DNA from: Cantharellus purpuraceus
Lineage: Eukaryota > Basidiomycota > Agaricomycetes > Cantharellales > Hydnaceae
DNA: 64,000 nt
Assembly: GCA_025174535.1 (NCBI GenBank)
Contig: JALBUN010000010.1
Span: 868,001-932,000, forward strand
Direction: 5' to 3'
The position numbers were made by a program, and so were the translations under genes. Under the pieces are notes generated by a model. That model had not been told where the DNA came from, did no database searches, and worked only from the letters and a program-made list of their open reading frames with translations. Positions within the stretch are counted from its first letter, which is position 1. Every line of letters begins with the position of its first letter. Positions 3,515 to 39,864 of the stretch are shown here, piece after piece.

Positions 3515-3737
3515 GTATATTCAAACTGCCATACTCACTTCTACCCTAATGCCATGATCCACTGCCAATTCTGAACATGCATGAGCTGTCAAGGTGCCTG
3601 CTTCCAGCATTGACACCATCTCTGAGGTTGTCAAAGAGCTGATGGGCCACATAGAGGCTGTCAATGAAGAGGATGACACCCCACCCTCCCTGAATCTGGT
3701 GCAAGTCATCTCCCTGCTCACCAGCAGCATCCATACC
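3515..3737. other. Unassigned spacer between two LTR-A copies
   Basis: An open stretch of about 45 codons (3594-3730, plus) precedes the next LTR-A copy. It resembles no family recognised here and is probably a fragment of retroelement coding sequence. Confidence 0.35.
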
Positions 3738-4411
3738 TGTTACGCACTAGGTCCGATTTGGGGTTGGAGGTTGGGTTGGAGGTTGGGTTGGAGGTTGGGT
3801 TGGAGGTTGGGTTGGAGGTTGGGTTGGAGGTTGGGTTGGAGGTTGGGTTGGAGGTTGGGTTGGAGGTTGGGTTGGAGGTTGGGTTGGAGGTTGGGTTGGA
3901 GGTTGGGTTGGAGGTTGGGTTGGAGGTTGGGTTGGAGGTTGGGTTGGAGTCAGAGTCGGAGTCAGGTAAGTTGTGGGGTTGGAATGGACTTGGCTTCAGC
4001 TTATGTGCTACGCCCTCACTAATACCAGTGTCTGAGATTTTGGAGACGGAGTACGAGTTAGGATCGGACTTAGGAACTAGGTGTGATTTGATATTCGAAC
4101 TGGGGAATGAAGTCCCCAGTCGGGCAACTTAAATACATATTTGAAATCTAATAATAATTACTCCGGGGATGGGTCTCCGAGGCCGATGGCCTTACATGAG
4201 TATGTCCGAGTCCGATGGGGATGGATGTCCAGGTTCCTATGGTGATGCTGATGCATCAATCGGAACCGGAGATGGATGGGTGGAATTGGCAGTGACAATC
4301 GGACAGGTAAATGGAGATGTGACGGTTTCCAAATGGAGTATAGATTTCATATGCATGGGGATCTGAGTGCATCAGATGGGGATCTGGGTGTTAATGAATA
4401 TAGTCATAACA
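3738..4411 (-). repeat. LTR-A, 3' LTR of truncated chromovirus E4, with expanded 12-bp minisatellite
   Basis: 674-bp LTR in reverse orientation, starting tgttacgcac and ending gtcataaca on the plus strand. About 16 tandem copies of the 12-mer ggttgggttgga lie at about 3765-3947. Just right of it, the minus strand reads a purine-rich tract (aatggagagatac), the polypurine tract expected before a 3' LTR. E4 is therefore a minus-strand element whose 3' LTR this is. Confidence 0.82.
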
Positions 4412-4538
4412 GTATCTCTCCATTTAAGGCTGAGCCCCTGAGGCCTCATGTCTGTGGATTGAATAGGTGAGATGGTTGGGCACAGTCGGAGTTATACTGG
4501 GGAAAAGGAGGGGCATGATTGAGGTCTTATCCCCAATG

Positions 4539-6290
4539 ATGTCAAACCCTTTGGCAAGCATGAGTGTGGCTGAGCTTGAGCAGTTGCTCTTGGCCCGACG
4601 GAAGGAAGAGGAAGAGGAGCGGAGATGGAAAGAGGAGGAGGAAGCAGAACGGAGACAGAAGGAAGAGGAGGAGGTGGAACGGAGATGGAAGGAGGAGGAG
4701 GAGCGGAGACGAAAGGAGGAGGAGGAGCAGAGATGGAAGGAGGAGGAGGAGCGGAGACAGAAGGAGGAGGAGGAGGAGGAGCGGAGATGGAAGGAGGAGC
4801 GGAGACGGAAGGAGGAGGAGGAGGAGTGGAGACGGAAGGAGGAGGAGGAGGAGCAGAGACAGAAGGAGGCGGTGGAGATGGAACGGAGAAGGAAGGAGGA
4901 GGAAGTGAAAGCTGAGAGGGCCCGCAGGGTCAAGGAACTTGCAGCCGCGAAGGAAGCTGTGAGACTGAAGGAAGTGGAGGAGCAGGCGCATGAGCTAGAA
5001 GCCACCATGGAGGTAGAGGAGGTGACTGGGGCAGGGGTGACCAGTCACCCAGGAAGTCCGAGTGTGCCAATACGGGCATGGACCCCTGAGGTCACCATCA
5101 TCTCCATTATGCGGACAGAGTCAACCCATCTGACAACTGTCCTTATGGAGGACTCACTGTTATGTCCACGGTCACAGCCGTTATTTGCGGTGGGTGCAGC
5201 TGAGGAAGATGACGTGGCGGAGGTGGAGAGGGTGGAGGTGGAAGTGGATCCTGATGCCAATATGGAGCTCAATGCAAATGCGGAGCCTGGGGCAGGTGTG
5301 GATGTTGGGACAGATGCAGAGCCGGATCTAACCTCGAATTGCTATTGGGTAGCTGCAGTTGAGGCTCGCAAAAGAGCGGAGCTTTATGCTGCTACCACCA
5401 AGAAGAATCTCAATGTCGCAGTCTTTTCATTGAAGGTGCACCCGAGTGCTGATACAGAGAAGCGGGAGGTGGATTGGAGGGTCATATGGTGCAAGGTGGA
5501 GAGTCACATGTTGGCGACCCATAAGAAGGAGCTGCATGTCGCTAGGTCGGCGATCCAGTTTCACAAGTGCAAGATGGAGAAGGCGGCAGCGGAACAGCAG
5601 GACAAGGAGGAGGAGAGGGAGCACTTGGAGGCCACATCGAGAAGGAGCGGACCACTCAAGGCTCTGGCTCCAGCGGAGCCATTCGGTGGGCCTGGCGTAA
5701 TTTGTGACTTGTGTTGTGACACAGGTGTGGAGTGTGTGTGGCCTACTGGCCCAACTTGCCACCTTCGGTCCTGCAATCGTTGTCGGGGTTGGAAAGGAGG
5801 GTGTAGGATCGATGGAAAGTTCGATCCCTGGAGTCGGAGTGTCAAGCCCCGACTAGTGGTACAAGGAGGGGTGGAGAAAGAATCGGAAGGTTGTCCAACC
5901 AAAAAGTGGAGAACAGAGATGGGTGCTGTGGCAGCTGGGGGTAGCGGTGTCGGGTTGGAAGGGGCAACGACTGGTGCAGGTACAGGGCATGTCTCTGTGC
6001 CCAATAGTACCATGGGCCAGCTTATCCGGCTGGTTAATCTGCAGTCGGAGCACCTTCGGTGGACGGAGGGGTTGTTAGTGGACTTGGTGAAGACAATGAA
6101 ATGGAAGGAGGTTCTGGAGGGTCAGTGGACGGCTGAGTTACGTTGGCTGCAGAAGTTCATGGCCCCTTTGGATGAGGATTTGGACATGGGGGATGAGAAC
6201 GATTGGGTGTCAGATGTAGAGAGTGATGATGAGTTGGAGATGGAGCCTGAGGTAGACAAGGGGAAGGGGAAAAGGAAATGCAATGTATAA
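4539..6290 (+). CDS. E4 antisense accessory ORF: coiled coil plus Zn2Cys6-like cysteine cluster
   Basis: 583 codons open from ATG 4539 (a second in-frame ATG lies at 4536) to TAA 6288-6290. After a short MSNPLASM N-terminus comes a long charged region rich in E, R and K (about residues 20-150), predicted coiled coil. An acidic middle follows, then six cysteines from residue 389 spaced C-x2-C-x6-C-x12-C-x2-C-x6-C, and an acidic C-terminus ending in KGKGKRK. The spacing equals the fungal Zn(II)2Cys6 consensus. It lies between the 3' LTR (left) and the pol C-terminus (right) of a minus-strand Ty3 chromovirus, so it runs antisense to the element. AATAAA at 6405-6410 follows the stop by 115 bp. 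The TATA seen in E3 is deleted here. It has no zinc knuckle of Gag type, and true Gag in this family is on the other strand. Function unknown; a DNA- or chromatin-binding role is inference. Confidence 0.72.
   Translation: MSNPLASMSVAELEQLLLARRKEEEEERRWKEEEEAERRQKEEEEVERRWKEEEERRRKEEEEQRWKEEEERRQKEEEEEERRWKEERRRKEEEEEWRRKEEEEEQRQKEAVEMERRRKEEEVKAERARRVKELAAAKEAVRLKEVEEQAHELEATMEVEEVTGAGVTSHPGSPSVPIRAWTPEVTIISIMRTESTHLTTVLMEDSLLCPRSQPLFAVGAAEEDDVAEVERVEVEVDPDANMELNANAEPGAGVDVGTDAEPDLTSNCYWVAAVEARKRAELYAATTKKNLNVAVFSLKVHPSADTEKREVDWRVIWCKVESHMLATHKKELHVARSAIQFHKCKMEKAAAEQQDKEEEREHLEATSRRSGPLKALAPAEPFGGPGVICDLCCDTGVECVWPTGPTCHLRSCNRCRGWKGGCRIDGKFDPWSRSVKPRLVVQGGVEKESEGCPTKKWRTEMGAVAAGGSGVGLEGATTGAGTGHVSVPNSTMGQLIRLVNLQSEHLRWTEGLLVDLVKTMKWKEVLEGQWTAELRWLQKFMAPLDEDLDMGDENDWVSDVESDDELEMEPEVDKGKGKRKCNV
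4640..4900 (+). repeat. GGA/GAG-rich low-complexity coding repeat
   Basis: Imperfect tandem units built on gaggagga and gcggagacggaag encode the E/R/K-rich coiled coil of the accessory ORF. The same tract in E3 (about 40070-40270) has fewer units, showing unit-number change between copies. Confidence 0.75.
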
Positions 6291-6451
6291 CATAAAAAAA
6301 TGGAAATGATATTGATTATAATCTGTCAGAGTGGAGAAGAATGAGGTGGAGTGATATTCCTTCGGAGTTTTTTGGGCAGACTTGTAATTTCCCTTGTGAC
6401 TTGTAATAAAATGATGATGCAAAATAATAGAATTAGCATTAGTAATGGAAC

Positions 6452-6599
6452 TTAAAGATTCATAAGAGGGCCAGGTTTGTCTGGATAAGTGGAGTGAAAG
6501 TCGGAGATGGATTCAGATGCGTGATTGAGTTTGGACACGGAGATCCATGAGGACTCTTCATTGGTGCCTTCGTATTCAGTCCATTTGACTAGGTACTGG
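6452..6599 (-). pseudogene. E4 pol C-terminus (chromodomain end), truncated
   Basis: The minus strand reads the end of the chromodomain and the terminal DKPGPLMNL seen also in E3. The N-terminal side is cut at 6599/6600 by LTR-B sequence. It sits tail to tail with the accessory ORF, with 161 bp between the two stops. Confidence 0.75.
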
Positions 6600-7408
6600 T
6601 GTTTTGGAACCCACAAAATTACGGTGCAACCTTCCAGTAGTTTCCATCTATTAATAGGTACAATATTCCAGAAGCATTAGTCAGCTCCTGTAAATACAAT
6701 ATATAAGGAGGTCATTCTGCCTCTGAAATAGTAACATATTCTACCACTTCTACCCATCTTCTGCACACCAGTGTGACTAGAGTGACATACAGTGTCATCC
6801 TCTATCTCAGTAACTGTTGATTACCAGTTCAAGGATCTTTTACAGTTGTGTAACTGTACTTGATTGCACTCGAAGTAGTGATATTCCTGCTTTGGGCGTG
6901 AGTGTAGTATCTGCCTCACGTGACTACAAATCTACAGGGTGAGATTGTCTGTTGATAGTCCTGCCATTAGTGCTCTTTGTTTAAGTTACTAGTGTGTACT
7001 GCCTTTGCAGAGCATTAGAATCTTGAACTTGTGTGAAGCAGTTGCTAGACTACTTCACACATCGCTGTTACCCGCTTCTGAGTGCCACTGGTTGGATGGT
7101 TGGATTCATCCACCTACTTCCTTTAGCCTCTAAGTGCATTCCCCTCTTTTTGGAATGTCTGGACCCCTAAGCGTCTGTGAACTCTAGACTCTGGAAGTCT
7201 TATTCATTTCTTGCTGCTAAGAAATGTATTACCTTTCTGCGTATAGTCTGCATTGACCAATACAAAGGATTGTAACCAAAGTACAAACGTTAAATTGTTT
7301 CTGGAGTTGTGCTGCAGCAGGGTTTGATATTCTTCTCAGCTGTTCATTCACGGAATTGTGGTGATTTAGAGTTTGCCCTAACACCATAATTTTGCGGGTT
7401 CCAAAACA
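6600..7408 (+). repeat. Chimeric LTR-B: 25 bp reversed end joined to forward 3' half
   Basis: 6600-6624 is the reverse complement of the LTR-B 3' end (tgttttggaaccc). It is joined directly to forward LTR-B from its middle (caaccttccagtag) through its 3' end at 7408 (ttccaaaaca). The left flank actgg and right flank gattt do not match, so this is not a simple insertion. It joins E4 to E2. The LTR-B TATA-like region (caatatataagg) is at about 6700. Confidence 0.8.
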
Positions 7409-8755
7409 GATTTCATCATGAATTTCACTTAGAAGATTAGATTGCTCAGCCTTGGGTACGCATAGCCTGTAATTGCCATTCCAATCTTCAAAGTAAAGCA
7501 ATCCATCCTCATTTTCAAAAAAGAGTGGATGCTTCAGACTGATCCAATTAGACTCCTGTCGTAATTCGGATCTGACCCTTTTGAAGTAAGGATCTTTGGG
7601 ATATGCACCAACTATTTTCTGAATCTCTTCCTGAGCAAGGCTAGAGACTAGATTATAGCTTTTGGCTGTCACGTATGGAATAGTGAAATCTTCTTCCAGG
7701 CTGGTATTGGCTTGGATGGAAGAAGCATGCACGTTCAGTGGAATTCTCTGGTTCTCTTCTTCATGTGCAGCCATTAACATTAAAGTTCTGGCTTCAAAGT
7801 GAGGAGAGATATCAGAATAAAAATCCACAAGTGGATCCTGTTCCGAGTCCAGGATAGTAGGAATGGAGTCATCAGAAGAAGGCCCATCTTGATATGGAAC
7901 ATTCCTTCTGAGTCTGGAGATAGGATCTACATTGGAGTGAACCCATCCCACTCGGTGTACAATGTTTAATTCAGGGTACGCAGCAAATACCGTTCCCCAA
8001 GTTAATAACCGCTGATTAACATTTTGGTAGGTCTGACTCCAGATGAGGGCTGCATGGTCTGTAATGGCTACTACTTTCTCCCCTTCAATGTAGGGTTGAA
8101 ATTTGATAAGACCGTCTCGTAATGCAAGTGCCTTTCTTTCCATAGGAGAGTAATTCCTTTCAGCTGGTTTCAAGGTGCGAGACCAGTAAGCAATGACTTG
8201 TTCTACTGAAACTGTAGTGTTTTCGAAGTCTTTATCCCAAGTACCTGGCTTAGGGAGAGTTTCATCTTTTAACACAGGAATCACCAATTGTGGTACAGGT
8301 AATCCTTTGTCATAAGCTGATTTGAGTTTCTCATACCCTTTGGTACCTTTGAGATCTCTGATTTTGAGAGGTTGAATCTGCTGAAGTATAGCAGCAATTC
8401 CAACATCACATGCGTCAGAGTAGACTCTATATCTGAGACCAGGAATGGCATACGCCCTGACTGGTGCACTGACAAGGGCATTTTAGCCAAATCAAAGGCT
8501 TCTTGTTGAGTATTGCCCCATTCCCAAGTTGAATTCTTTTTGAGCAATTCAAACAAGGGAGCTACAATCCATGCATAGAATGGTATATATGAGGAGAAGT
8601 ATACCACCATTCCAAGGAAGATTTGTAGGTCATGCACATTCTTTGGTTCTGCCAATTCCAGTATAGCATCTATCTTCTCTTTGTGAGTTGATAGACCTAA
8701 CTGTGATACCTTTTTCCTAACAGTAGCAATGACTGGTAGGCCAAATGGCACTTAG
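7409..8755 (-). pseudogene. E2 Ty3/gypsy pol: end of RT, RNase H and start of integrase zinc region (truncated)
   Basis: Reads on the minus strand from the RT connection (LELAEPKNVHDLQIFLGMVVYFS) through an RNase H block (YWSRTLKPAERNYSPMERKALAL, then ITDHAAL) to a pre-integrase stretch ending LLSEIHDEI, where LTR-B cuts it at 7408. Frames change near 8285 and 8755. RNase H and RT order fit Ty3/gypsy. The integrase core and 3' LTR of E2 are not found in the window. Confidence 0.82.
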
Positions 8756-10009: not shown

Positions 10010-10588
10010 TGTTAAGTGCTGAAAACTCGGAGTTTAAAGGAGTAGCTGGTGTTTGGATACTAGTGAGGAAGGGGATGGGACTTTACTGTTCCAGTTCAAC
10101 TGGAGACAGATGGGGACAAATAACATTTGAGTCAGATCGAGTGGACTTGGCTTCAACTTATGTGTTGCGCCCCCTTGAATTGTCGGTCCAATATTTCGGA
10201 GTTCGGAGTATGGAGTTGGATCAAAGATCCGGAGATTGACTTGTCAAGAAGCTAGTAACCAAGAAGCTGATGGGGAATCTTAGTCGATTTACGAACTACT
10301 GTAACATACAAGAAGTAGCCCGTATAAGTATGTAGAGAATTGAATGGTAAAACTAAAAGCAATAAGACAATAAGACTAATATGGAATACAACATGGAAAG
10401 GAGTTTGGAGTTCAGACTCATGTCCGAACTAATACTAAACAATTAGAAAGTATAATGGTTGTTGTAACCCATAAGAAGAAGACTACTAATGAGGAGAACA
10501 ATGGCAGGGTCTGGAGTTGATGGAGGTGGAGTTGACGGAGGTGGAGATGGAATCTGGAGATCGGAACTCAGTGTTACAGGATGTAACA
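10010..10588 (-). repeat. LTR-C, 3' LTR of E1
   Basis: 579 bp, plus strand tgttaagtgct to ggatgtaaca. Carries a short ggtggagttga repeat near its right end. Pairs with the 5' LTR at 16407-17013. Confidence 0.92.
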
Positions 10589-10732
10589 GTATCTCCCTTC
10601 TAGATCGAGCCCACGAGATCTTAGTCAGTACCATGGGAAAGTTGCAGGTATATGCGGTTGAATTGGCGCATGAGGCGAGGCCCTTATTAAAACGTGTGTT
10701 ACCTCATTCCTTATCTCTTACCACCATCTACT
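10589..10732 (+). promoter_or_regulatory. Leader of the E1 antisense ORF with AT-rich TATA-like box; minus-strand polypurine tract
   Basis: 144 bp between LTR and the accessory ATG. attaaaa at 10686-10692 lies 41 bases before the ATG, matching the place of the clear TATA in E3. The first 13 bases, read on the minus strand, are the purine tract that primes plus-strand DNA synthesis in LTR elements. Confidence 0.5.
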
Positions 10733-11530
10733 ATGCCTTCCGCTGAGGAACTTCGCCAACAACATGCCGAATTGGACCGGTCGATCGCTGAGGCTGATGC
10801 TGCGGAGAAGAAGGCGGAGGAGGAGAAGAAGAAAGAGGCGGCTTGCGCGAGGGTCGCTGAGGCCACACGAGTCAGAGCGGAGGCCGTGAAGAGGAGGGCT
10901 GTGTCGCAAGTAGCCGTCAAAGGCAAGGAGGTCGTCCGAGACCTCGACGAGGAGTCCGAGCTGGACCTCATCTGTGATATGTGCATCAAGCACAAGGAGG
11001 GTGTAAGTGCAGCGGATCCGTCTCCCAAACGTCGTAGGACATGGACCATGTCCTCAGGTCCTGGGGTCGAGTCAATACCGCCAGCATTGGTAGAGGCCAT
11101 GCAGGACATCAGCCTCAACTCGGCTGTGGTGGCTCGTCGTTTGATCAATGTGTCCGATCATGGCGAAGGAACAATTGCGGCCCTTCAGGGCATCGAGGCT
11201 CATTTGGGTGAGCTTGCAGGAATGTTCCATCACTACATGATGGAACCGAGATGGGGTCCACTCCAAGGGGAGTTGGACTCGTTGAAGCTGGAACTCCTGG
11301 GTGCCGTATATGACACGGACTCAAACTCCTCCGGGTCTTGGGATACCACGGATAACTTCGATGGGTTGGATGATGACGAGTGGAGGCCATGGGAGGAGAT
11401 TGACAGGATGCTTGAGGATCAGAGACTGGAGTTGGAGATTCCAGAGCAGGAGATTTCAGAGAAGGGGGGGACAGTGGATGGGGGTTCTGAGGAATCGGAT
11501 GTAGGGGAGTCGGAGATCATGGAGTCTTGA
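10733..11530 (+). CDS. E1 antisense accessory ORF, short form
   Basis: 265 codons from ATG 10733 to TGA 11528-11530, open while the flanking pol is frameshifted. The N-terminus MPSAEELRQQHAELDRSIAE runs into an A/E/K/R-rich helix (residues 15-75), then a CxxC pair (ICDMC) followed directly by a basic KRRR stretch and an acidic C-terminus. Compared with E3/E4 the order is the same: helix, cysteines, basic patch, amphipathic segment, acidic tail. However, four of the six cysteines are missing. It is antisense to gag-pol, with stops 58 bp apart. A decayed relative of its N-terminal half lies at 33790-34121. No known function; homology to the E3/E4 ORF is inferred from position and layout. Confidence 0.68.
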   Translation: MPSAEELRQQHAELDRSIAEADAAEKKAEEEKKKEAACARVAEATRVRAEAVKRRAVSQVAVKGKEVVRDLDEESELDLICDMCIKHKEGVSAADPSPKRRRTWTMSSGPGVESIPPALVEAMQDISLNSAVVARRLINVSDHGEGTIAALQGIEAHLGELAGMFHHYMMEPRWGPLQGELDSLKLELLGAVYDTDSNSSGSWDTTDNFDGLDDDEWRPWEEIDRMLEDQRLELEIPEQEISEKGGTVDGGSEESDVGESEIMES

Positions 11531-11588: not shown

Positions 11589-12440
11589 TTAAGGCAAAAT
11601 GGGACCAGGTTTATGAGGATGGGCTGTGTGGAAATTGGAGATGATCTCCATCGCATGTCCTAATTCCGAAGCTGGTAGCCAGGAAGTTTCTTCATCTGTT
11701 CCTTCGTATCCTGCCCACCTGACAAGGTATTGCAGTTTACATTTTCGTCTCTTGTCGATCTTGGAGTCCAGAATTGCTGATAATTCGTACTCCAGTTCTC
11801 CATCTATGATGACAGGAGGAACTGGAGTTGGTTCTCGACCAGAGAATGGATCTGGAGTTGATGGTTCAAGCATGGAGACGTGGAAGACGGGGTGTATGGA
11901 GCGCATGCTTTCTTGGAGATGGAGGGTAAAGGAGTTAGAGCCTGCTTGAGCGATGATTTCGAAAGGACCAAGATATTTCTCCGATAGTTTCTTGGAAGGT
12001 CTCTAGTACATATGCTGTCAGATTTGACGAAAACCTTGTCTCCAACCTTGAAGTCCAGAGCTGGAGATCGACGGCGGTCAGCGGAGGTGGAGTAATGGAG
12101 TTGGGCATTGGAGATGGTCTTTCAGAGATGCTGGTGGAGTTCATGGAGATCCACAGCGAAGTCTTGAGCTCTTGAAGAAGCGAGGTCTCATTCCGGATGT
12201 ACGGAGATGTTTGGGTGGTCACCCTTGTTGGCAAAGAATGGAGATAAGCCAGTAGTGGCGTTCGGAGCATTATTATACGCAAATTCTGCGAGTGGGAGTA
12301 AGTCGGACCAGTTGTCCTGTTGGTAGTTGCAATAGACTCGGAGGTACTGTTCAAACGTCTGGTTCATTCGTTTGGTTTGTCCATTGGCTTCCGGATGGTA
12401 TCCGGAGGTGAAGTGGAGTTTAATGTCCAAGGCCTTTCCA
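11589..12440 (-). pseudogene. E1 integrase C-terminal part and chromodomain (frameshifted)
   Basis: 12430-12188 carries the HPEANGQTKRMNQTFEQYLR block with the catalytic Glu region of the integrase core and the FAYNNAPNATTG stretch. 11906-11589 carries the post-integrase segment (HPVFHVSMLEP) and a chromodomain (CKLQYLVRWAGYEGTDEETSWLPASEL) that defines a chromovirus. The region between is frame-broken. Chromodomains direct integration to modified histones in related elements. Confidence 0.87.
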
Positions 12441-13090: not shown

Positions 13091-13945
13091 AGCTCAGAGG
13101 GATGCCGTTAACTGTTCATTAGTGAACACAGGCCTAAAATTATGCGGATTTACTGCTGCATAATTATTTCCTCCCTCTTTAGGATAGATGTCCCATCGTC
13201 TAGTTAATGAGTCTGGTTTTGTACCGAGTTTGCCAGGATGGAATCAGATTACCAGATTGAACTGGGACAGGAATTCAGACCAGCGGGCTTGCTGCCGTGT
13301 AAGGAGTTTGGTAGTTGAAAAGTATTTGAGGTTCTTGTGGTCTGTGATGACATCGACCGGAGTTGGGGATCCTTCGAGGCAATGTTGCCAGGACTTGAAA
13401 GCTTCAAAGATTGCGAGTAGTTCTTTATCATGGACATCGTAGTTGAGTTCCACCGGAGTGAAAGTCCGGGAGTGGAAAGCTATTGGGTGGACCTCATTAT
13501 CTGTTGGAGAGATGGTTGATAGGATGGCTGCTAGTGTGTAGTCGGAGGCATCGGTTTCTACAATGATCGGGGATCTGGGGTTCCATTGGGATAAGACCGG
13601 AGCTGTGATGAAAGCTCTCTTTAATGTTTCGAAGGATGTCCAACAGGAGTCCGAGAACTCCCATGGAGTTCCTTTATGAGTTAAACGAGTCAGTGGAACT
13701 GTGAGATCGGAGTAATTGAATATGAAATGCCTATAGAAATTGGCAAATCCTAAGAAGGATTGCACGTCCTTGACTTTGCGAGGTTCTGGCCAATCCTGTA
13801 TTACCTGGACTTTGCTGGAGTCCATAGTAAGTCCGTTTGGAGACAATATATCCGAGGTACTCGACCGTGCTCTCATGGAAAGAACATTTGTTGGCTCGAG
13901 CATACAGCTTGTGCTTCTGGAGTTGGAGAAGGACTTCACGGACAT
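13091..13945 (-). pseudogene. E1 RNase H
   Basis: Minus strand RT connection and RNase H: SFLGFANFYRHFI, IIVETDASDYTLAAILS, AFHSRTFTPVELNYDVHDKELLAI and ITDHKNLKYF. Asp and Glu positions of the RNase H fold are present. A frame change near 13840 separates it from RT, and a stop follows EFLSQFNLVIRF. Confidence 0.88.
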
Positions 13946-14657
13946 GGTTGCTGTGTTCGTCGGAGTTGTTGGAGTATATCAGGATATCGTCCAAGTACAC
14001 GAGGACCCATATATCCAGGAGGTCAGAGAAGATGTTGTTCATAAGACGCTGGAATGCTGCCGGAGCGTTGGTAAGTCCAAAGGGCATAACACACCACTCA
14101 AACGAGCCGTAGCGAGTGCGAAACACGGTCTTCCATTCGTCACCTTCATGAATCCGGACAAGGTGGTAAGCATGCCAGAGATTGATTTTGGTGAAGAATC
14201 GAGCCTTTTGAGGACTGTCAAGCAAATCGGAGATGCAAGGAAGTGGATAATGGTCTTTTTTGGTGATTTTATTGAGACCCCTGAAATCAACACAAAGTTG
14301 GAGGGATCCGTCTTTTTTCCGAATGAAAAGGACTGGAGCACTGCCCAGAGATCGGGTCGGCCGGATGAAACCATAAGATAGGTGCTCATCGATGAATTCT
14401 CGAAGAGCCTGGAGTTTGCTCTGGGACAAGGAGTAGATTGGACCAAAAGGAGGAGATGTTCCATCTTTCATTTCAATCTTCAAATCGTACGGCTTGTGAG
14501 TGGGTAGTGTGTCGGCATGGGTTTTGCTAAAGACATCCATGAATTCATGATATTTGGTTGGAACATTTTTCATGTCGACCGGAGGGTCCTCGGAGTTCTT
14601 TGGAACTGTTGAGGAGATGAACAACTTGAATGTGTGCGTCGGCTCAGGAAGAGTCAC
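13731..14657 (-). pseudogene. E1 reverse transcriptase with Asp-to-Asn change in motif A
   Basis: Minus strand, 308 codons. RT blocks: [50 protein letters not shown] and the catalytic VYLDDILIYS. Motif A reads [12 protein letters not shown] where chromoviruses normally have TKIDLRHAYHLV, so the first catalytic Asp is Asn. E1' at 39180 has the same two changes. The ORF loses frame after EYLGYIVS. Confidence 0.88.
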
Positions 14658-15198
14658 GGGTGAAGGCTGCCGCGTTGATGAAAGCTATTTTTGGAGCAAC
14701 GGGTGGAGATGGAGTTACAGAGTTGAGTGGAGCTGATGCTACCGACTCGGGTGGCGCCAAGGATTTAGTCTCTATTGGAGTTTGGAACGAGATACTGCCC
14801 AATATCCAGTCAATCAACGGATTGTAGCGGGTGAGCCAGTTGTGTCCCAGAACTGCCAAGCAACTAACATCCAATGGAGTTACATAGAAAGTAACGGAGT
14901 GGGTTTCTCCTGTAGGAAAACGGAGTGGGGAAAACAGAGTGGCAATTCGATTGTGGAATTGATAACAGAGTTAGAGGATCCGTCGAAAAGCCATAACGGA
15001 ATCAGAGTGATGTCTTTAGACCGGAGATGATGTCCGGAGACAAATGAAGTGTTGAGGAACCAGTGAGTGGAACCAGAGTCCACTAAGGTTGGGATTGGAG
15101 TTAAGGGAATGAGATCGGAGGTAAGTCAGAGTGTCAAGGAGTTAGGATCAGAAAGAGCGGATGTGTTGAGACGTAGCTCCGCGAAAACACCGATGAGT
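14644..15198 (-). pseudogene. E1 aspartic protease (frameshifted)
   Basis: Minus strand 15083-14880 has the active-site block VDSGSTHWFL, and 14874-14644 has the second block CLAVLGHNWLTRYNPLIDW. These are the DSG and hydrophobic-hydrophobic-G blocks of retroviral-type proteases. One frame change lies between them near 14878. Confidence 0.78.
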
Positions 15199-16200
15199 TC
15201 AATGCAACCCTTGTTCGGTGCCGGAGTTGGAGGGTTGCTTATTATTATTTTGGCTCCATAGCCTTGGCTTTGGAGCTCTTGTCGGACTTGTTGTCCATTG
15301 AGGCAGCACGGGCTTTGTGGCTGCAGAGGTGGTCTTTGGACAATCCTTGGCAACATGACCTATTCGTCCACAGAAGAGGCAGAGATTCTGCTCGATATGA
15401 CATTGTCGTTCCTGTAGAGTAAGTTTAATGTCTTTACCAAGCTTGGTAGAGAGGTTGGGGGTCTGCTTTGGAGTTCTGGAGATAGAGGCTGTGGGGGTGG
15501 ATCTGGGGTTTCCGGATTTACTGGAGTTGGGCTGCTTCTTGTTGTCGCTGCCCTGGGTGTTAGAGGATGAAGTGGACTTGCCCTTGTTGTTGGACTTGTC
15601 CTGGTTCTTGCCCGAGGCGGTCTCACGAGCTACCTCGGAGCATCGTTCCCAGTACTGAGCATCGATGGACTGTGCTAGAGTCCGGAGTTCAGCTAGGGTG
15701 ACGGGTTTGCCTACTCTGGCGACCTCATCCTTAATCTGGGATGGGAGGCCATTGTATAACTGGCGTTGGAGTGCAGCGTTTCCCCATTGGACACAAGCAG
15801 CTAGTCGATTGAAATCAACTAGATACTTAGTGATCCTCTGGTTATCACGCATTTGGAGATTCTCAAGTTCGGCCTTGGCTTTGGCCTCTGGGTCATGAGG
15901 TCCGAAGTTGGTTTTCAACTCGGACACGAACTCAGAGTAGTCGTCTAGCCAAGAGGCTTCGGAATTGGAGGTTAGGGTGGGTTTGAACCAGTTGAATGCA
16001 GTTCCCTTCAAATAGGATAGAGCATAAGTAACTTTAGCACTATCATCGGAGAATGCATCAGGACAGTCACAGAAATTGAGGGTACATTGTGTGAAGAAAG
16101 GCTGGAGTTTGCGGGAATCGGATCTGTCGAAGGTATCTGGTTCTCGGACCTTGGTCCGAGCAGAAGACTTCTTCGGAGATGATATGGAGTTAGCCAACAT
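15199..16200 (-). CDS. E1 Gag (capsid and nucleocapsid)
   Basis: 333 codons on the minus strand. Capsid-like segment KVTYALSYLKGTAFNWFKP, then ELENLQMRDNQRITKYLVDFNRLA, a low-complexity S/N/K/P region, and a CCHC zinc knuckle CLFCGRIGHVAKDC. This is the standard Ty3/gypsy Gag, on the same strand as pol, showing that the plus-strand ORF at 10733 is extra. The start at 16200 is the first ATG of the long frame. A short N-terminal frame (ATG about 16379) overlaps in another frame and is open in E1' but stopped here. Confidence 0.85.
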   Translation of the reverse strand: MLANSISSPKKSSARTKVREPDTFDRSDSRKLQPFFTQCTLNFCDCPDAFSDDSAKVTYALSYLKGTAFNWFKPTLTSNSEASWLDDYSEFVSELKTNFGPHDPEAKAKAELENLQMRDNQRITKYLVDFNRLAACVQWGNAALQRQLYNGLPSQIKDEVARVGKPVTLAELRTLAQSIDAQYWERCSEVARETASGKNQDKSNNKGKSTSSSNTQGSDNKKQPNSSKSGNPRSTPTASISRTPKQTPNLSTKLGKDIKLTLQERQCHIEQNLCLFCGRIGHVAKDCPKTTSAATKPVLPQWTTSPTRAPKPRLWSQNNNKQPSNSGTEQGLH

Positions 16201-16406
16201 ACTGAGGGCTTCCGCAGGTTAGGGATTAGGATGGATGATAGATTAGCTAGAGGAGTGCCTTCCTAGAGGTTAGCCTCGAGCTCCTGGTCGGATGATGGTG
16301 CTTCTCCAGGGACTTCCTCAATGGTAGCAGGTGGTACTCCCGCTCGGATGGAGGTCTGGGTGCTTTGGGGTGGCATGACAATTTGAGGGTGTAAGTTCGT
16401 ATATAC

Positions 16407-17013
16407 TGTTAAGTGCTGAAAACTCAGAGTTTAAAGGAGTAGCTGGTGTTCAGATACTAGTGAGGAAGGGGATGGGACTTTACTGTTCCAGTTCAACCGG
16501 AGACAGATGGGGACAAATAACATTTGAGTCAGATCAAGTGGACTTGGCTTCAACTTATGTGTTGCGCCCCCTTGAATTGTCGGTCCAATATTTCGGAGTT
16601 CGGAGTACAGAGTTGGATCAAAGATCTGGAGTTTGACTTGTCAAGAAGATACTTGTCAAGAAGCTAGTAACCAAGAAGCTGATGGGGAATCTTAGTTGAT
16701 TTACGAACTACTGTAACATACAAGAAGTAGCCCATATAAGTATGTAGAGAATTGAATGGTAACTAAAAGCGATAAGACAATAAGACTAATATGGAATACA
16801 ACATGGAAAGGAGTTTGGAGTTTGGACTCATGTCCGAACTAATACTAAACAATTAGAAAGTATAACGGTTGTTGTAACCCATAAGAAGAAGACTACTAAT
16901 GAGGAGAACAATGGCGGGGTCTGGAGTTGATGGAGGTGGAGTTGACGGAGGTGGAGTTGATGGAGGTGGAGATGGAATCCGGAGATCGGAACTCAGTGTT
17001 ACAGGATGTAACA
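16407..17013 (-). repeat. LTR-C, 5' LTR of E1
   Basis: 607 bp, plus strand tgttaagtgctg to ggatgtaaca. It has a 16-bp duplication (agatacttgtcaagaa) near 16640 and one extra ggtggagttga-type unit relative to the 3' LTR. The internal region next to it begins gtatatacgaactt on the minus strand, with no tgg. Confidence 0.92.
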
Positions 17014-17018: not shown

Positions 17019-17547
17019 CTGCAAGGTCAGGAAGGGCTCTTATTTTAAAGGTGTGACCATTCTCATCCAATAAGGGTGAGCTCACTGAGTTCTCAATCTT
17101 GGCCTTCCGTCCAGTATTACCAAACATAAGATAGCTATCTGAGCCTTCTCTTATAAGCGAGATTGAGTACTGATCAGCAAAATCATTCCCAAGAATGACA
17201 GGGGTAGTCATGCCTTTGACCACATAAGCTTCAACTTCAATCTGAACTGGTCCAGAGTCAGAGTCAAAGTAAATGGGCACCATAATGTATCCAGAAATTT
17301 TGGATGTGCCAGTAACTTGTATCAAGTTAATTTTCTGACCCGTTTTGATCTTAGGAGGATTCTCCATAGAGCAGAGAGCTTACTGAGAGATAAGGGTTAT
17401 GTCTGAACCAGAATCAGCTACAAGGGTGGTTTGATTCTTTCCATATTCTCCCAGCCAAACATTTGTAGTGGTAGCAGAAGATCCAAGGAAGGCACAGCCC
17501 ACTGGTCTGGACATGAAACGCTTGAGTTTAATCAAGGAGTTTGGAGC
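17019..17547 (-). pseudogene. E2 aspartic protease
   Basis: The minus strand reads VGCAFLGSS, then the active-site block VADSGSDITLIS, one TAA stop near 17380, and the second block MTTPVILGNDFADQYSISL. The left edge is the E1 insertion (TSD cagag) and the right edge the LTR-B insertion (TSD ggagc at 17543-17547). It links the E2 Gag (right of 20405) with RT (left of 10009). Confidence 0.83.
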
Positions 17548-20404
17548 TGTTTTGGAACCCGCAAAATTATGGTGTTAGGGCAAACTCTAAACCACCACAA
17601 TTCCGTGAATGAACAGCTGAGAAGAATATCAAATCCTACTGCAGCACAACTCCAGAAACAATTTAACGTTTGTACTTTGGTTACAATCTGTTGTAATGGT
17701 CAATGCAGACGATACGCAGGAAGGTAATACGTTTCTTAGCAGTAGGGAATGAATAAGACTTCCAGAGTCTAGAGTTCACAGATGCTTAGGGGTCCAGATA
17801 TTCCAAAAAGAGGGGAATGCACTTAGAGGCTAGAGGAAGTAGGCGGATGAATCCGACCGTCCAACCAGTGACACTCAGAAGCGGGTAACAGCAATGTGTG
17901 AAGTAGTCTAGCAACTGCTTCACACAAGTTCAAGATTCTAATGCTCTGCAAAGGCAGTACACACTAGTAACTTAAACAAGAGCACTAATGGCAGGACTAT
18001 CGACAGACAATCTCACCCTGTAGATTTGTAGTCACGTGAGGTAGATACTACACTCACGCCCAAAGCAGGACAATCACTACTTCGAGTGCAATCAAATACA
18101 GTTACACAACTGTAAGCGACCCTTGAACTGGACAATCAACAGTTACTGAGATATAGAGGATGACACTGTATGTCACTCTAGTCACACTGATGTGCAAATG
18201 ATGGGGTAGAAATGGTTATTTATTCAGAGGCAGAATGGGCTCCTTTTATATTGTATTTACAGGAGCTGACTAATACTACTGGAAACTTCTACCTGTTAAT
18301 AGATGGAATCTACTGGAAGCTAGTGGAATATGTGAGAAGGGGGTGGAAGTTTCCTAGCCAATGAGCTGCTTGGATTTGCTCTGACTCATGGCATGAGTCA
18401 TGGATGGAGTTGTATGGGAACCACCTTTTCCCTATCAAATTCCATTTATGCAGCACCAATGTGCTATTCTTTGCTTTTCCATTCCTAAATATCAGCATAT
18501 ATTTGATGCTTGTACCTGGAATGGACTTATTCAAATATTCTCTATTTTTCCATATTTTTTCAGGAATATTCCATGCAGAACTCGGCTCAGAATCATTTAT
18601 TTCTGCTGTGCTACAGTTGTGGACCCATAGGCGCCCACAAACCTTCGCGCAGCCGGCTCTCCCCTTTTGCACCAGGCATTTGGCCTGAATTCAAGCTCAG
18701 ATGTCTCTCATCAATAAATATTCTGTAACTTAACAACCACAGCCTCTCAGGGCACTATTTTCCATGCAGATCATCACCTGAGATGTGGCTATCCAAACCA
18801 GTGCAGAAAACAGGGTGGACACCCTTCTTTTTGCCTGATCAGTGCCTAGCTCAGGGATCAGATCAGCTGATGGGTGATCAAATCAGGTGATTGCCTTGGA
18901 ATATTCTACCCCTTTCCATAACATTCTAGCTGTTTCCCTCTATTATTAGATAGAACTTTCCAGAACCATTATTCAGCTCCTGATCAGTGTTAGTGCTGTG
19001 ATCAGATCCTGTGATTGGCTTGGAATATTCTACCCCTTTCTTCCACCTTCCACAACCTTCCAGTAGTTTCCATCTATTAATAGGTACAATATTCCAGAAG
19101 CATTACTCAGCCCCTGTAAATACAATATATAAGGAGGCCATTCTGCCTCTGAAAGAAGAACATATCATCATATTCTACCCATCTTCTGCACACCAGTGTG
19201 ACTAGAGTGACATACAGTGTCATCCTCTATCTCAGTAACTGTTGATTACCAGTTCAAGGATCTTTCACAGTTGTGTAACTGTACTTGATTGCACTCGAAG
19301 TAGTGATATTCCTGCTTTGGGCGTGAGTGTAGTATCTGCCTCACGTGACTACAAATCTACAGGGTGAGATTGTCTGTCGATAGTCCTGCCATTAGTGCTC
19401 TTGTTTAAGTAACTAGTGTGTACTGCCTTTGCAGAGCATTAGAAGCTTGAACTCGTGTGAAGCAGTTGCTAGACTACTTCACACATCGCTGTTACCCGCT
19501 TCTGAGTGCCACTGGTTGGACGGTTGGATTCATCCACCTACTTCCTTTAGCCTCTAAGTGCATTCCCCTCTTTTTGGAATATCTGGACCCCTAAGCGTCC
19601 GTGAACTCTAGACTCTGGAAGTCTTATTCATTTCTTGCTGCTAAGAAACATATTACTTTTCTGCGTATAGTCTGCATTGACCAATACAAAGGATTGTAAC
19701 CAAAGTACAAATGTTAAATTGTTTCTGGAGTTGTGCTGCAGCAGGGTTTGATATTCTTCTCAGCTGTTCATTCACGGAATTGTGGTGATTTAGAGTTTGC
19801 CCTAACACCATAATTTTGTGGGTTCCAAAACAGGAGTCATAGTATGAGTAATCACAGGAGTCATGGTATGAGTCATGGAAGGAGTCATAGCATGAGTCAT
19901 GGCAGGAGTCATTGCATGAGTCACCATTACTCAAATAACTCGGTCAATACTTCGTTTCCTGGGCTGATCAGCACAGCTATGGGTAGGCACAGCTTCTATT
20001 GAACTCTCCACTGAAAATGGAGTCAGGAGGTGCAGTGGTTGTGAAGATATTGAGGATTTACTGGCAGTGGTGACCAGATTGAGTCGGAGATTGAAATGAG
20101 TCATGTGATTGAAAATGAGTCAGTTGTCCGGGTGACTCCAGCTGACCTTGGGGCTGCTGACATCTGCAAAGGTTTGTGGGTCCATGTGGGTCCCAAAACT
20201 TCACCCAGCAGAACAATAAGTTTGTAGACTCATTTCTGCATGGAAAATTCCCGAAAAAATATGAAAAAATAGAGAATATTTGAATGGCCCTGAATCAAGA
20301 GAAAGCAGCACATATATGCTGATATTTTAAGGCCATGAAGTGAAATTGTACAGTTTTGGGACTTTAAACAAGATCTTTTTTAAGGGAAAACCAGTTCCCA
20401 TACA
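17548..20404 (-). repeat. Solo LTR-B, reverse, interrupted by a second LTR-B; TSD ggagc
   Basis: Starts tgttttggaaccc and ends ttcccataca on the plus strand; 5-bp TSD ggagc at 17543-17547 and 20405-20409. With the inner insertion and its TSD removed, it is about 1430 bp, equal to other LTR-B copies. Its sequence is visibly more diverged than the inner copy, so it is older. It lies inside E2 between Gag and protease. Confidence 0.9.
18411..19832 (+). repeat. Solo LTR-B, forward, nested in the older LTR-B; TSD ggagt
   Basis: 1422 bp from tgtatgggaacc to ggttccaaaaca with inverted termini and TSD ggagt (18406-18410 and 19833-19837). Nearly identical to the copy at 37281-38712 except for a 10-bp deletion near 18788. 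It has a TATA-like box (caatatataagg) at about 19122. The flanking host has short repeats of ggagtcatgg type (19833-19925). Confidence 0.92.
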
Positions 20405-26576: not shown

Positions 26577-28031
26577 TGTTATGACTATATTCATTAACGC
26601 CCAGATCCCCATCCAATCCACTCAGATCCCTGCGCATATGAAATCTATACTCCATTTGGAAACCGTCATGTCTCCATTTACCTGTCCGATTGTCACTGCC
26701 GATTCTGCCCATCCATCTCCAGTTCCGATTGATGCATCAGCATCACCATAGGAACCTGGACATCTGTCCCTGTCGGACTCGGACATACTCATGTAAGGCT
26801 GTCGGCCTTGGAGACCCATCACTGGAGTAATTATTATTAGATTTCAATTATGTATTTAGGCTGTCCTGTTAAGAAAAGATATGGAGGGGTGTTGTGGGTG
26901 AGTGTAAGATGAAGGTGAGGGATGGTGGCAAAGTAGATTTTTTTGAATAGGGGAGCAATTACTGTAAGGATGCAGATATATGCGGGGTCGATGGAAAGGT
27001 GTTGTTTAGTAGAGTGATGTTACCAAATATTAAGAACTGGGACTTCTGCAAAATATTTGAGCAGAAATGGGAATAGCAACACTTCGAAAAAGTGTTTGCT
27101 TAATAGAAGTGGATGTAATGATCCAAATCGTTCGTAATTTGAGATAGCAATAGTTGATGCAATATCCAAATGGGATATGCAAAAGATTTCAAATTGAATA
27201 GGTCGTTTAGGAGTTATTCCAGGAACGACAGAAAGTTGACACAAGCTGTTTGTTTGCAGCTTGGAAGGGATTGAGAATAGTGAATCTCCCTGTTGATACT
27301 CGTACACAGTTGTAGTTAATATACAATTTGACAATCACATGATAAAAAAGCCTTTTAGTAAGATTGAAACATATGATAAAAGAAATGATGTGGATACTGA
27401 TAATATGTGATGTCATGGGGAAAAAAATTTTATAGAGAAAGGAGTTTTTACCCGTTTGACTTGAGGTTTATGACGAATGAAAATCATCATAATACCTCCC
27501 TTTTTGAATAGTAGCCACCCCCGTAGAACGAAAGGATGGCTCACAAAATAAAATCGAAAATCACCTCCTCCTCATCCCTTAATCAAAAAATTCCCAAACT
27601 TTTCACAACTTTTCCTTATCATAAAACTCCCCCTTCTTGCTCCAATAGATTGTAATATTACTTGAATAAATTCTTGACATGTCCGACTGGGGACTTTATT
27701 CCCCAGTTTGAATCACGCCTAGTTCCTAAGTCTGACCCTAACTCCCTAAGTCGTACTCCATCTCTGAAATCTTGGACACCAGTATTAGTGAGGGCGCAGC
27801 ACATAAGCTGAAGCCAAGTCCGTTCAGACCCCCACAACGTACCCGACTCCTCTGACTCCTCCCAAACCTCCTCCCAAACCTCCAACCCAATCTCCAACCC
27901 AATCTCCAACCCAATCTCCAACCCAATCTCCAACCCAATCTCCAACCCAATCTCCAACCCAATCTCCAACCCAATCTCCAACCCAATCTCCAACCCAATC
28001 TCCAATCCCAATTTGGACCAAGTGTGTAACA
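26577..28031 (+). repeat. Solo LTR-A in E5 Gag, TSD gtagc, containing LTR-D and a 12-bp minisatellite
   Basis: Starts tgttatgactat and ends agtgtgtaaca. TSD gtagc at 26572-26576 and 28032-28036. Without LTR-D it is about 637 bp. Near its 3' end (about 27875-28000) are some ten copies of the 12-mer ccaacccaatct, the reverse-strand counterpart of the array in the E4 LTR. Confidence 0.9.
26867..27679 (+). repeat. Solo LTR-D nested in LTR-A, TSD tgtcc
   Basis: 813 bp, tgttaagaa to ttcttgaca, imperfect inverted termini. TSD tgtcc at 26862-26866 and 27680-27684. AT-rich, with no other copy in the window and no coding sequence. It is the third level of nesting: LTR-D in LTR-A in E5. Confidence 0.87.
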
Positions 28032-28036
28032 GTAGC

Positions 28037-28886: not shown

Positions 28887-29553
28887 TGTTACATCCTGTA
28901 ACACCAAGTCCAAACTCCAGACCTCCATCTCCCTTACCTCCATCCCTGTCAACTCCACCTCTGTCAACTCCACCTCTGTCAACTCCACCTCTGTCAACTC
29001 CACCTCTGTCAACTCCACCTCCATCAACCCTGAACTCCATTATTGTTCTCTTTATATGTAGTTTCTTCTTATGGGTTACAACAAACCTCCTTCTTTTATA
29101 TTGCTTAGTTTCAGTTCAGACTTGGGTCCAAACTCTGAACTCCTTTCCATGTTGTACTCCATATCCGTCTTATTGTCTTATCGTTTTAGTTTCAGCATTC
29201 AATTCTCCACATACTTATACAGGCTACTCTCTGTCTATTACAGTAGTTCATATATCAACTAAGATTTGCCCCATTAACTTCTTGGTTGCTAGCTTCTTGA
29301 CAAGTACCTTCTTGACAAGTTGAACTCCAGATCCCTGATCCAACTCTGTACTCTGAACCCCAAAATATTGGACCGACAATCTGAGGGGGCACAACACACA
29401 AGTTGAAGCCAAGTCCACTCAATCCAACTCAATAGTATTGCTCCCACTCTGTCTCCGGTTGAACTGGAACAGTAAAGTCCCATCTCCCTCTTTACTAGCA
29501 GCTGAACTCCAGCCTTTTTCCATTGAACCCCGAGTTGTTTCAGACACTTAACA
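28887..29553 (+). repeat. Solo LTR-C in E5, TSD ggagg, with 15-bp minisatellite
   Basis: 667 bp, tgttacatcctg to gacacttaaca, TSD ggagg at 28882-28886 and 29554-29558. About six copies of a tcaactccacctctg unit at about 28948-29030. Same LTR family as E1, in the opposite orientation on this strand. Confidence 0.9.
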
Positions 29554-33620: not shown

Positions 33621-34732
33621 GAGGGGGCGCAACACAAGTTGAAGCCAAGTCCACTCGATCTGACTCACTAGTATTGCCCCCACTCTGTCTCCAGTTGAAC
33701 TGGAACAGTAAAGTCCCATCTCCCTCTTTACTAGCAGCTGAACTCCAGCCTTTTTCCATTGAACCCTGAGTTGTCACAGACACTTAACACACAGCTGCCC
33801 TCACCAAAGCCCTTTTCCTTGCAGCCTCAGTCTTGACTTGGGCAACTTCAGCGGCCCTCTTGTGAGCTGCCTCCTCCTCTTTTCTTTTCTCCTCCTCCAC
33901 CTTCTTCCATGACCTCCACCTCTGCAATCGACTTGTCCAACTTGGCACATTGCTGGCAAAGTTCTTCAGCAGAGGGCATATCAGATGGTGGTAAGAGATA
34001 AGGAGGGAGACAACATGCATTTAATATTGGCCAGCCCCATGTGCCAATTCAAATGCATATACTGACATTATTCCCATGATGCTGACTAAGATCTCATGGG
34101 CTCAATCTAGAAGGGGGATGCTTTTACATCCTGTAACACCAAGTCTGATCTCCAGGCTCCATCTCCACCCCCTCCTACTCCAGGTCTATCAACCTCATTT
34201 CCAACAACCCTGAACTCTGTCTATTGTTCTCTTGATAAGTAGTTTCCTAGTTATGGGTTACAACAACCTTCATCTTTCATATTGATTAGTTATAGTTTGG
34301 ACTTGAGACTGAACTCTGAACTCCTTTCCATATTGTATTCCATATCTGCTCTATTGTTCTCCCACTCCAGATTTCTCATTCAATTCTCTGTATACTTATA
34401 TGGGCTATTTTCTGTATGTTACAATAGTTTGTATATCAACTAAGTTTGACCCCAACATCCTCTTGGTGGCACTAGCTTCTTGACAAGTGACTTCTTGACA
34501 AGTCAAACTCTGGATCCCTGATCTGACTCCATACCTCTGAACTCCAAAATATTGGACCAATGATCCAAGGGGGTGCAACACACAAGTTGAAGCCAAGTCC
34601 ACTTGATCTGACTCAATAGTTATTGCACCTCTCTGTGATCAGTTGAACTGGAACAGTAAAGTCCCCTCCCATATATCTCTAGTACCCAAACTCCAGTTAC
34701 CTCCTTGAACTCCATTTTTCAGCCACTTAACA
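33621..34732 (+). mobile_element. Deleted E1-family derivative: LTR-C part, antisense ORF fragment, LTR-C
   Basis: 33621-33789 is the 3' part of LTR-C, 33790-34121 is the N-terminal part of the antisense accessory ORF on the minus strand, and 34122-34732 is a decayed LTR-C. Gag and pol are absent. The layout agrees with the E1 3' end. Confidence 0.68.
33790..34121 (-). pseudogene. Fragment of E1-type antisense accessory ORF
   Basis: The minus strand from about 33980 leftward reads MPSAEEL-like sequence and an E/K/A/R-rich helix (KRKEEEAAHKRAAEVAQVK), matching the E1 ORF at 10733. A frame change separates the first 20 residues from the rest. It is cut at 33790 by LTR-C. Confidence 0.65.
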
Positions 34733-34937
34733 ATTCTACTCCATCTTCTGCACACCAGTGTGACTAGAGTGACATACAGTGTCATCCTCTATATCTCAGT
34801 AACTGTTGATTGTCTAGTTCAAGGGTCACTTACAGTTGTGTAACTGTACTTGATTGCACTTGAAGTAGTGATTGTCCTGCTTTGGGGATGAGTGTAGCAT
34901 CTGCCTCATGTGACTATGAATCTACAGGGTGAGATTG
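34733..34937 (+). repeat. LTR-B internal fragment
   Basis: Middle of LTR-B (from tctactccatcttctgcaca to ctacagggtgagattg), interrupted by the E1' 5' LTR at 34938. Confidence 0.8.
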
Positions 34938-35559
34938 TGTTACATCCTGTAGCACTGAGTTCCGATCTCTGGATTCCATCTCCACCTCCATCAACTCCAC
35001 CTCCATCAACTCCAGACCCCGCCATTGTTCTCCTCATTAGTAGTCTTCTTCTTATGGGTTACAACAACCGTTATACTTTCTAATTGTTTAGTATTAGTTC
35101 GGACATGAGTCCAAACTCCAAACTCCTTTCCATGTTGTATTCCATTTTAGTCTTATTGTCTTATCGCTTTTAGTTACCATTCAATTCTCTACATACTTAT
35201 ACGGGCTACTTCTTGTATGTTACAGTAGTTCGTAAATCAACTAAGATTCCCCATCAGCTTCTCGGTTACTAGCTTCTTGACAAGTATCTTCTTGACAAGT
35301 CAAACTCCGGATCTTTGATCCAACTCTGTACTCCAAACTCTGAAATATTGGACTGACAATTCAAGGGGGCGCAACACATAAGTTGAAGCCAAGTCCACTC
35401 GATCCGACTCAAATGTTATTTGTCCCCATCTGTCTCCAGTTGAACTGGAACAGTAAAGTCCCATCCCCTTCCTCACTAGTATCTGAACACCAGCTACTCC
35501 TTTAAACTCTGAGTTTTCAGCACTTAACAGTATATACGAACTTACACCCTCAAATTGTC

Positions 35560-39344: not shown

Positions 39345-39864
39345 TGTTATGCACTAGGTCTGATTGGGGTCGGAGATTGGGTCGGAGGTCAGGTCGGAGG
39401 TCAGGTCGGAGTTGGAGTATGTCGTGGGGGTTGGAACAGACTTGGCTTCAGCTTATGTGCTGCACCCTCACTAATACCGGTGTCTGAGACTTTGGAGATG
39501 ACTTAGGGAGTTAGGATTGGACTTAGGAGCTAGGCGTGATTCGATATTCGAACTGGGGAATGAAGTCCCCAGTCGGGCAACTTAAATACATATTTGAAAT
39601 CTAATAATAATTACTCCGGTGATGGGTCTCCGAGGCCGACGGCCTTACATGAGTATGTCCGAGTCCGACAGGGATGGATGTCCGGGTTCCTATGGTGATG
39701 CTGATGCATCAATCGGAACCGGAGACGGATGGGCAGAATCGGCGGTGACAATCAGACAGGTAAATGGAGATGTGGCGGTTTCCAAATGGAGTATAGATTT
39801 CATGTGCGCGGGGATCTGAGGGGATTGGATGGGGATCTGGGCGTTAATGAATATAGTCATAACA
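39345..39864 (-). repeat. LTR-A, 3' LTR of E3
   Basis: 520 bp, tgttatgcac to agtcataaca on the plus strand. Only two or three degenerate units of the minisatellite region are present (ggtcggaggtca, about 39370-39405). Confidence 0.87.

Follow-up and report, generated by a model that had tools for sequence, protein, structure and literature searches.

The 64-kb window analyzed here is the whole stretch G000:C10:868001-932000, taken from a genome of 40.15 Mb in 50 contigs that was also searched, and it contains three elements designated E4, E3 and E1. E1 is encoded on the minus strand, with a 5' LTR at about 16407-17013, gag at 15199-16218 (Pfam matches Ty3_capsid and zf-CCHC), a reverse transcriptase at 13731-14684 (RVT_1), the end of pol at 11589-12002 (Chromo) and a 3' LTR at about 10010-10588. 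The two LTRs, whose ends are approximate, are 92% identical and the 5-bp target-site repeat CTCTG flanks both ends of the element. A further ORF lies on the plus strand at 10733-11530, in the interval that separates pol from the 3' LTR. A TATTAAA box (10685-10691, +) was located by eye 48 nt 5' of its ATG. The sequence-only reading had described E1 as an element with a zinc-knuckle Gag and pol on the minus strand, to which the plus-strand ORF is additional, and the domain matches agree with that description. The ORF itself is real, but it belongs to a copy with an internal deletion near 10997 which, compared with other copies of the same family (family B), removes an intron and the second half of a zinc cluster.

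The corresponding genes of E4 and E3 belong to family A, from which family B is divergent. In E4 (locus L001 of the genome-wide set), the antisense ORF extends on the plus strand over 4467-6290, that is 607 codons from stop to stop and 583 from the likely start ATG at 4539. Its translation holds a zinc-cluster-like motif, C-x2-C-x6-C-x12-C-x2-C-x6-C, at 5703-5804 (+), and a candidate poly(A) signal of the antisense gene, AATAAA, was read at 6405-6410 (+). E4 is a 5'-truncated element that has kept, besides this ORF, the 3' LTR (3905-4411, -; 88% identity by blastn with the LTR of locus L034, running on into a 12-bp tandem array at about 3714-3997) and the last piece of the chromodomain as a pol remnant (6461-6604, -; tblastn). 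The E3 gene (40006-41676, +) is homologous to the E4 ORF with 73% identity and is preceded, 39 nt 5' of its ATG, by TATAAA at 39967-39972 (+). It lies between a 3' LTR (39345-39864, -) and the C-terminal part of pol (41825-43021, -), in which Pfam recognized the terminal Tf2-1 SH3 and Chromo domains. The proposal that all three elements have a long antisense ORF in the stretch separating pol from the 3' LTR thus held for place and orientation; as a single open frame it failed in E3, which has one in-frame TGA at 41146-41148. The antisense gene and pol converge, with about 58-150 bp between the gene end and the pol stop in E1, E3 and L034. The domains of a Ty3/gypsy chromovirus are present in the host elements, namely the Gag capsid with its CCHC knuckle, RVT_1 and a terminal chromodomain (all in E1, the Chromo domain also in E3).

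The E4 protein gave at least 95 matches in the same genome, with 72 of 1318 candidates scored. Eight of the best 30 family A places have no internal stop, so that the argument drawn from E4, an ORF open though the surrounding pol is broken, carries modest weight; its 583 open codons themselves were confirmed. At the 30 family A loci pol, recognized by its integrase, lies antisense on the 3' side of the gene in 27 and an LTR on its 5' side in 29 (the locus without LTR being L022). The integrase was not found in E4 itself and in L017, which lies at a contig end, and L021 has only a fragment elsewhere. Among 20 family B loci, the chromodomain occupied the expected place in all except L048 (19/20) and the LTR in all except L039 and L047 (18/20). 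Every one of the 50 loci (30 A and 20 B) thus has pol, an LTR or both on the expected side, and the antisense placement proposed from the window extends to the whole genome. Two distant family B copies (40% and 46%) also adjoin a chromodomain, one of them with an LTR in view.

The same arrangement was seen from the side of the chromodomains. An antisense family B gene lies within 2.2 kb of 29 of the 33 family B chromodomains, and the sole same-strand neighbour is part of an adjacent element. For family A, at least 55 of 116 chromodomain rows had an antisense family A gene and none had one on the same strand among the matches listed; one partial row (C7:338461) was left out of the count, and one row placed under family A (C28:47115, 81% identical) in fact belongs to family B, as does the gene that it matched. 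Six of the 61 family A misses were examined; each contains family A sequence in the expected orientation, mostly partial or interrupted. Six 10-kb family A loci picked among the well-preserved copies showed simple LTR pairs, 91-96% identical, in five cases (L033 has a longer repeat). In each of the six, gag-pol is forward but disrupted; five have an antisense frame open over 594-614 codons. The elements conform to Ty3/gypsy chromoviruses in their LTR pairs with TG...CA ends and in their 5-bp target-site repeats, which match in three of the four elements read (L034, L035 and E1; not L031).

These positions bear on the idea that one element acquired a zinc-cluster gene of the host, by capture or as a nested insertion, without deriving any function from it. 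Both the antisense orientation and the intron would follow readily if a genomic gene had inserted, and a common family of fungal regulators has this cysteine spacing. Against it, the gene occupies the same place in two divergent families, where it is under constraint, pol or an LTR stands where expected at all 50 loci, and even the distant family B copies adjoin a chromodomain. Homologues found mainly as free host genes, the outcome that the sequence-only reading had named as fatal to its proposal, are not what the 50 loci read show. We consider a passenger gene of this kind quite unlikely, a free host gene beyond the matches scored and an ancient capture as the origin of the antisense gene both being possible.

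Coding constraint on family A was measured with a natural copy, L034, as reference and five other copies, using context-matched resampling and counting each distinct site and allele. The antisense ORF had an observed/expected N/S ratio of 0.66, and the synonymous count was reached by 0 of 1000 shuffles. The same test, on segments whose domains were labelled by eye, gave 0.49 for the RT part and 0.59 for the IN part of gag-pol, 0.81 for gag (P 0.134) and a non-significant 0.88 for the 3' LTR (P 0.311). When 31 family A copies were compared, N/S in the antisense frame was 0.60 for singletons and 0.63 for shared variants, and four other frames exceeded 1.1. For the sense-strand mirror frame the values were 0.59 and 0.71, close to those of the antisense frame because the wobble positions of the two frames coincide. 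This mirror frame, with 5-8 stops in 378-431 codons in four copies where the antisense ORF has none, was ruled out as a coding frame by its stops alone. Stop-making changes in family A were fewer than expected in the 31 copies, 3 versus 5.8 and 1 versus 4.0, without reaching significance, and borderline in the L034 test (4 versus 8.7, P 0.055).

For family B, L041 served as reference and 17 copies were compared, L047 and E1 being omitted from the 19 non-reference rows. The six copies of the L041 subfamily gave a non-significant N/S of 0.87. The eleven copies of the other subfamilies gave 0.60 (0 of 1000 shuffles) and 9 stop-making changes for 24.8 expected. Substitutions between copies are therefore non-neutral (0.66 in family A, 0.60 between subfamilies of family B), and the dN/dS near 1 that the sequence-only reading had set against its own proposal does not describe them. 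The pattern, drawn from decayed copies of one genome, is what would be expected from selection during activity followed by neutral decay.

A chance open frame arising from purine-rich repetitive sequence has some observations on its side. The N-terminal part of the ORF is a GGAGGA-type repeat open in several frames, and stop depletion is weak in family A. Codons one step from a stop (CAA, CAG, CGA, TGG) are also somewhat scarcer in the antisense ORF of L034 (29/607) than in its gag (28/308), IN (22/332) and RT (15/232). In the E4 ORF they number 38/608, close to IN and RT, so that composition accounts for little of the openness of E4. Openness by itself is weaker evidence than place, orientation and constraint. 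Constraint was measured outside the N-terminal repeat, and chance leaves unexplained the intron, the cysteines and the homology with a metagenome protein (P0004, 39-40% identity). In our judgement the constraint tests in both families, together with the family B intron, refute this explanation, which we regard as most improbable.

Sequence elements compatible with an antisense transcription unit were found around the gene. Of the 29 family A copies with a recognizable start, 27 have TATAAA about 40 nt upstream of the ATG, the exceptions being E4 and L003; the count leaves out L021, where the pattern matched at a wrong place, and L012, whose start was missed. As read in the sequence, this box sits in the internal region, outside the LTR. 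Of 31 copies, 28 have a recognized gene end, and in 26 of these AATAAA follows at no more than 220 nt. In family B, the start pattern recognized 10 of 20 loci, none of them of the close subfamily, and nine of these ten have TATTAAA or TATAAA 25-48 nt upstream.

Most family B copies contain in addition an intron of 54-73 nt with GTRAGT and YAG at its splice sites and, between them, a TACTGAT branch motif and a pyrimidine-rich tract. It is complete in 15 of 19 loci when the pattern is widened to take in the close subfamily; L039, L040, L043 and L055, in which the pattern was unmatched, have gaps in the alignment there. The branch motif is missing from the opposite strand of all 15 complete introns. 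Predicted splicing preserves the reading frame and restores the full zinc cluster in most family B copies. A pattern for the end of exon 1, with four free positions followed by fixed bases, had 44 matches in the whole genome, all of them with GTRA (44/44; reversed control 0), although these matches are not independent events because the copies share ancestry. No intron was seen in family A. Splicing of the sense genomic RNA cannot remove an intron of the antisense strand, which therefore survives retrotransposition; for the same reason the conservation of this intron points to antisense transcription, which we infer from the genomic sequence.

The functional unit could be the antisense transcript itself, acting as a non-coding RNA, a source of dsRNA or through interference, with the protein secondary. 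The convergence of the gene with pol, and its end so close to the pol stop in E1, E3 and L034, would suit such a role, and hbz transcripts of HTLV-1 also have non-coding activity according to the passages on hbz in PMC10186651. An RNA function does not account for codon-level constraint in the antisense frame, for stops below expectation between family B subfamilies, or for conserved cysteine spacing and a frame-preserving intron. We judge it unlikely. Near-fixed position and orientation, the constraint tests and the TATA, AATAAA and intron signals support instead the earlier interpretation of the ORF as coding for an accessory protein, presumably kept by selection while the family was active.

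The predicted protein is characterized by six cysteines. The motif C-x2-C-x6-C-x10/12-C-x2-C-x6-C was found in 7 of 8 family A copies (E4 and 6 of the 7 other stop-free copies; not L005), in P0004, and with all six cysteines complete in 10 of 14 spliced family B copies. A tryptophan stands two residues past the third cysteine in nearly all of them (family A, spliced B and P0004). Zn2Cys6 proteins follow the rule C-x2-C-x6-C-x5..12-C-x2-C-x6..8-C, which the antisense protein fits, and its spacing is one that we take to be that of the fungal Zn2Cys6 clusters. Over 116 columns, which run from the cluster to within a C-terminal helix, the family A profile can be aligned with that of family B (E 4.6e-5 in this single comparison, probability 69%), and the two families therefore likely derive from one ancestral gene.

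Whole proteins gave no Pfam match above cut-off and no match with Zn_clus. Cut-out segments, which were mosaics of two copies, matched Zn_clus (PF00172) with E 0.029 and 0.089, that is 14.9 and 13.4 bits for a cut-off of 21, and in one of the two segments zf-C3HC4_3 scored better (0.063) than Zn_clus. There was no bZIP among the Pfam matches of the antisense protein, and Transposase_28 (PF04195, TRP28) was absent from matches with E up to 1 or 10. In an AlphaFold model of E4 residues 289-607 the cluster is preceded by two long helices predicted with confidence and followed by a third long one of moderate confidence; pLDDT was below 50 over most of the cluster in this model, and a second model had a mean pLDDT of 50. 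Foldseek returned two matches (best E 5.6), neither of them meaningful, and a PDB profile search no match. With sub-cut-off Pfam scores and no confident fold for the cluster, the protein is therefore not assignable to the Zn2Cys6 family, like which it may work. It resembles Gal4-type Zn2Cys6 factors in the cysteine spacing and the basic residues that follow, and differs from them in its score below the Zn_clus cut-off, in having no other Pfam domain above cut-off and in being encoded by an element.

P0004, a metagenome protein of 362 amino acids, is the only convincing relative among the matches of the protein database searches, with 40% identity over 41% of the query and 39% over 79% of residues 290-607. 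Three other candidates (P0005-P0007) were dropped, the part common with them being by eye only an E/K/R-rich coil. The spliced family B protein had no match in the protein database search. P0004 itself matched at least 113 places in this genome (113 of 708 candidates scored), many of them family A places; seen as a whole they gave no sign of a third family.

Zn2Cys6 proteins prefer CGG half-sites, and the LTRs of both families are enriched in TCGGA. TCGGA occurs 9 times in the 529-bp LTR of L034 for 2.1 expected and 5 times in the 579-bp LTR of E1 for 0.7 expected. It ranks 1, 2, 4 and 4 among the observed pentamers in four LTRs, and 13 and 18 in gag and IN, which are themselves rich in it (6 versus 2.0 and 7 versus 3.2 expected). 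It is absent from the tested copy of the repeat at 6627-7409, taken as the LTR of another element. TCGGA was noticed before being tested, and other pentamers reach the same enrichment. Nor do the four LTRs count as independent samples, since two come from one element and A and B share about 70 bp; the enrichment is for these reasons only a lead towards a possible target.

The gene may also be real with a protein whose target is chromatin or integration and not LTR transcription, either as an anti-silencing factor, such as VANC of VANDAL transposons, or as an insertion tether working with the chromodomain. The evidence for a conserved antisense gene applies equally to such a protein, the many decayed copies make silencing pressure plausible, and an acidic tail and a coil are compatible with many nuclear roles. 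The TCGGA excess points, weakly, to the LTR as the target instead. We hold a chromatin or integration role for a tentative, less favoured possibility.

HBZ, the product of the HTLV-1 antisense gene, has coiled-coil and acidic parts. Antisense genes are already known in two groups of elements. In plant Ty3/gypsy elements of the Retand, Grande and RIRE2 type, as in the fungal elements, an antisense ORF lies between pol and the 3' LTR in nearly all clusters; the passages on these ORFs in PMC11963269 report them in 97% of Retand clusters with TRP28, with a proposed regulatory role. The Retand product is likewise a suspected DNA-binding regulator, and Retand tandem repeats often lie near the 3' end (same passages of PMC11963269). 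Retand-type elements differ in being non-chromovirus plant elements with TRP28 (PF04195), of which the fungal gene has no match; the latter codes for a cluster of six cysteines and is interrupted by an intron in family B.

In HTLV-1, the antisense gene hbz gives spliced and unspliced transcripts from a TATA-less promoter in the 3' LTR, as described in the sections on hbz of PMC10186651. This gene and those of the deltaretroviral proteins APH-2/3/4 lie, like the fungal one, on the 3' LTR side after the last sense gene. Following the same sections of PMC10186651, HBZ comes from spliced transcripts and regulates sense transcription, two properties that the fungal gene may share, splicing in family B. 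HBZ is a bZIP protein made from a TATA-less LTR promoter, unlike the fungal gene with its TATA-like box in the internal region and its putative zinc cluster. The resemblance is in arrangement only, and no sequence relation is claimed.

A survey of fungal chromodomain Gypsy elements (PMC2864245) lists an "additional ORF" in the legend of Figure 3; the text around it gives no strand, sequence, domain or intron, and an overlap with the antisense gene is possible. A term search of the main texts of PMC3248453 and PMC3411680 did not find the word antisense. A full-text literature search, with most subscription journals outside its scope, returned, among the papers listed, no report of such an antisense gene, so that within that search the fungal version appears to be new.

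Taken together, fixed place and orientation, coding constraint, a TATA-like box, a poly(A)-like signal (family A) and a spliceosomal-type intron (family B) are supported. The best explanation, which we find somewhat probable, is that a clade of fungal chromoviruses carries the antisense ORF as an accessory gene coding for an HBZ-like, element-encoded putative DNA-binding regulator. Pol II would transcribe it from the inner edge of the 3' LTR toward pol, and in family B the mRNA would be spliced. The protein, predicted to combine the six-cysteine zinc cluster and a basic patch with a charged coil, another helix and an acidic tail, would enter the nucleus, dimerize and bind DNA. Its most likely target would be the element's own LTRs, rich in CGG-type half-sites (TCGGA), where it could tune or switch sense transcription, as HBZ does in HTLV-1 and as has been proposed for TRP28 in Retand. 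A fuller version, possible rather than probable in our view, is that the clade evolved, independently of retroviruses and plants, a TATA-driven antisense zinc-cluster factor, spliced in one branch, which binds CGGA clusters of the LTR as a sense/antisense switch and whose intron marks the strand transcribed while being immune to loss by retrotransposition. If true, this third and apparently unrelated case, found in fungi and using another putative module for DNA binding, would make an antisense regulator beside the 3' LTR a recurrent solution of LTR retroelements. The conserved antisense intron would be an unusually clean genomic hint of antisense transcription, and fungi are tractable for studying the self-regulation of LTR elements.

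Other features were noted in the genome and in the window. The stretch just after the 5' LTR is similar in families A and B (L031, L034, L035 and E1) and reads GTATATWYRAAC, which may represent a shared primer-binding arrangement. A short unit of the LTR is present in additional copies at L040, L041 and L046, three of the 20 family B loci. Internal stops in decayed copies genome-wide are mostly TGA, which might reflect C-to-T decay. Within the window, the 12-bp tandem array at the E4 LTR (3714-3997) has a related inverted stretch at 27850-28032. Further family B LTR matches lie at 33983-35529 and 28887-29553, and a short piece of the family B antisense gene at 34015-33923, these being remnants of the same clade. 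A putatively LTR-like repeat family is present at 6627-7409, where it adjoins E4, and at 17547-18131, 19053-19833, 37901-38712 and 45476-45932. A pol fragment with a Pol_BBD domain, which we take to be Ty1/copia-like, extends over 44469-45398 (+).
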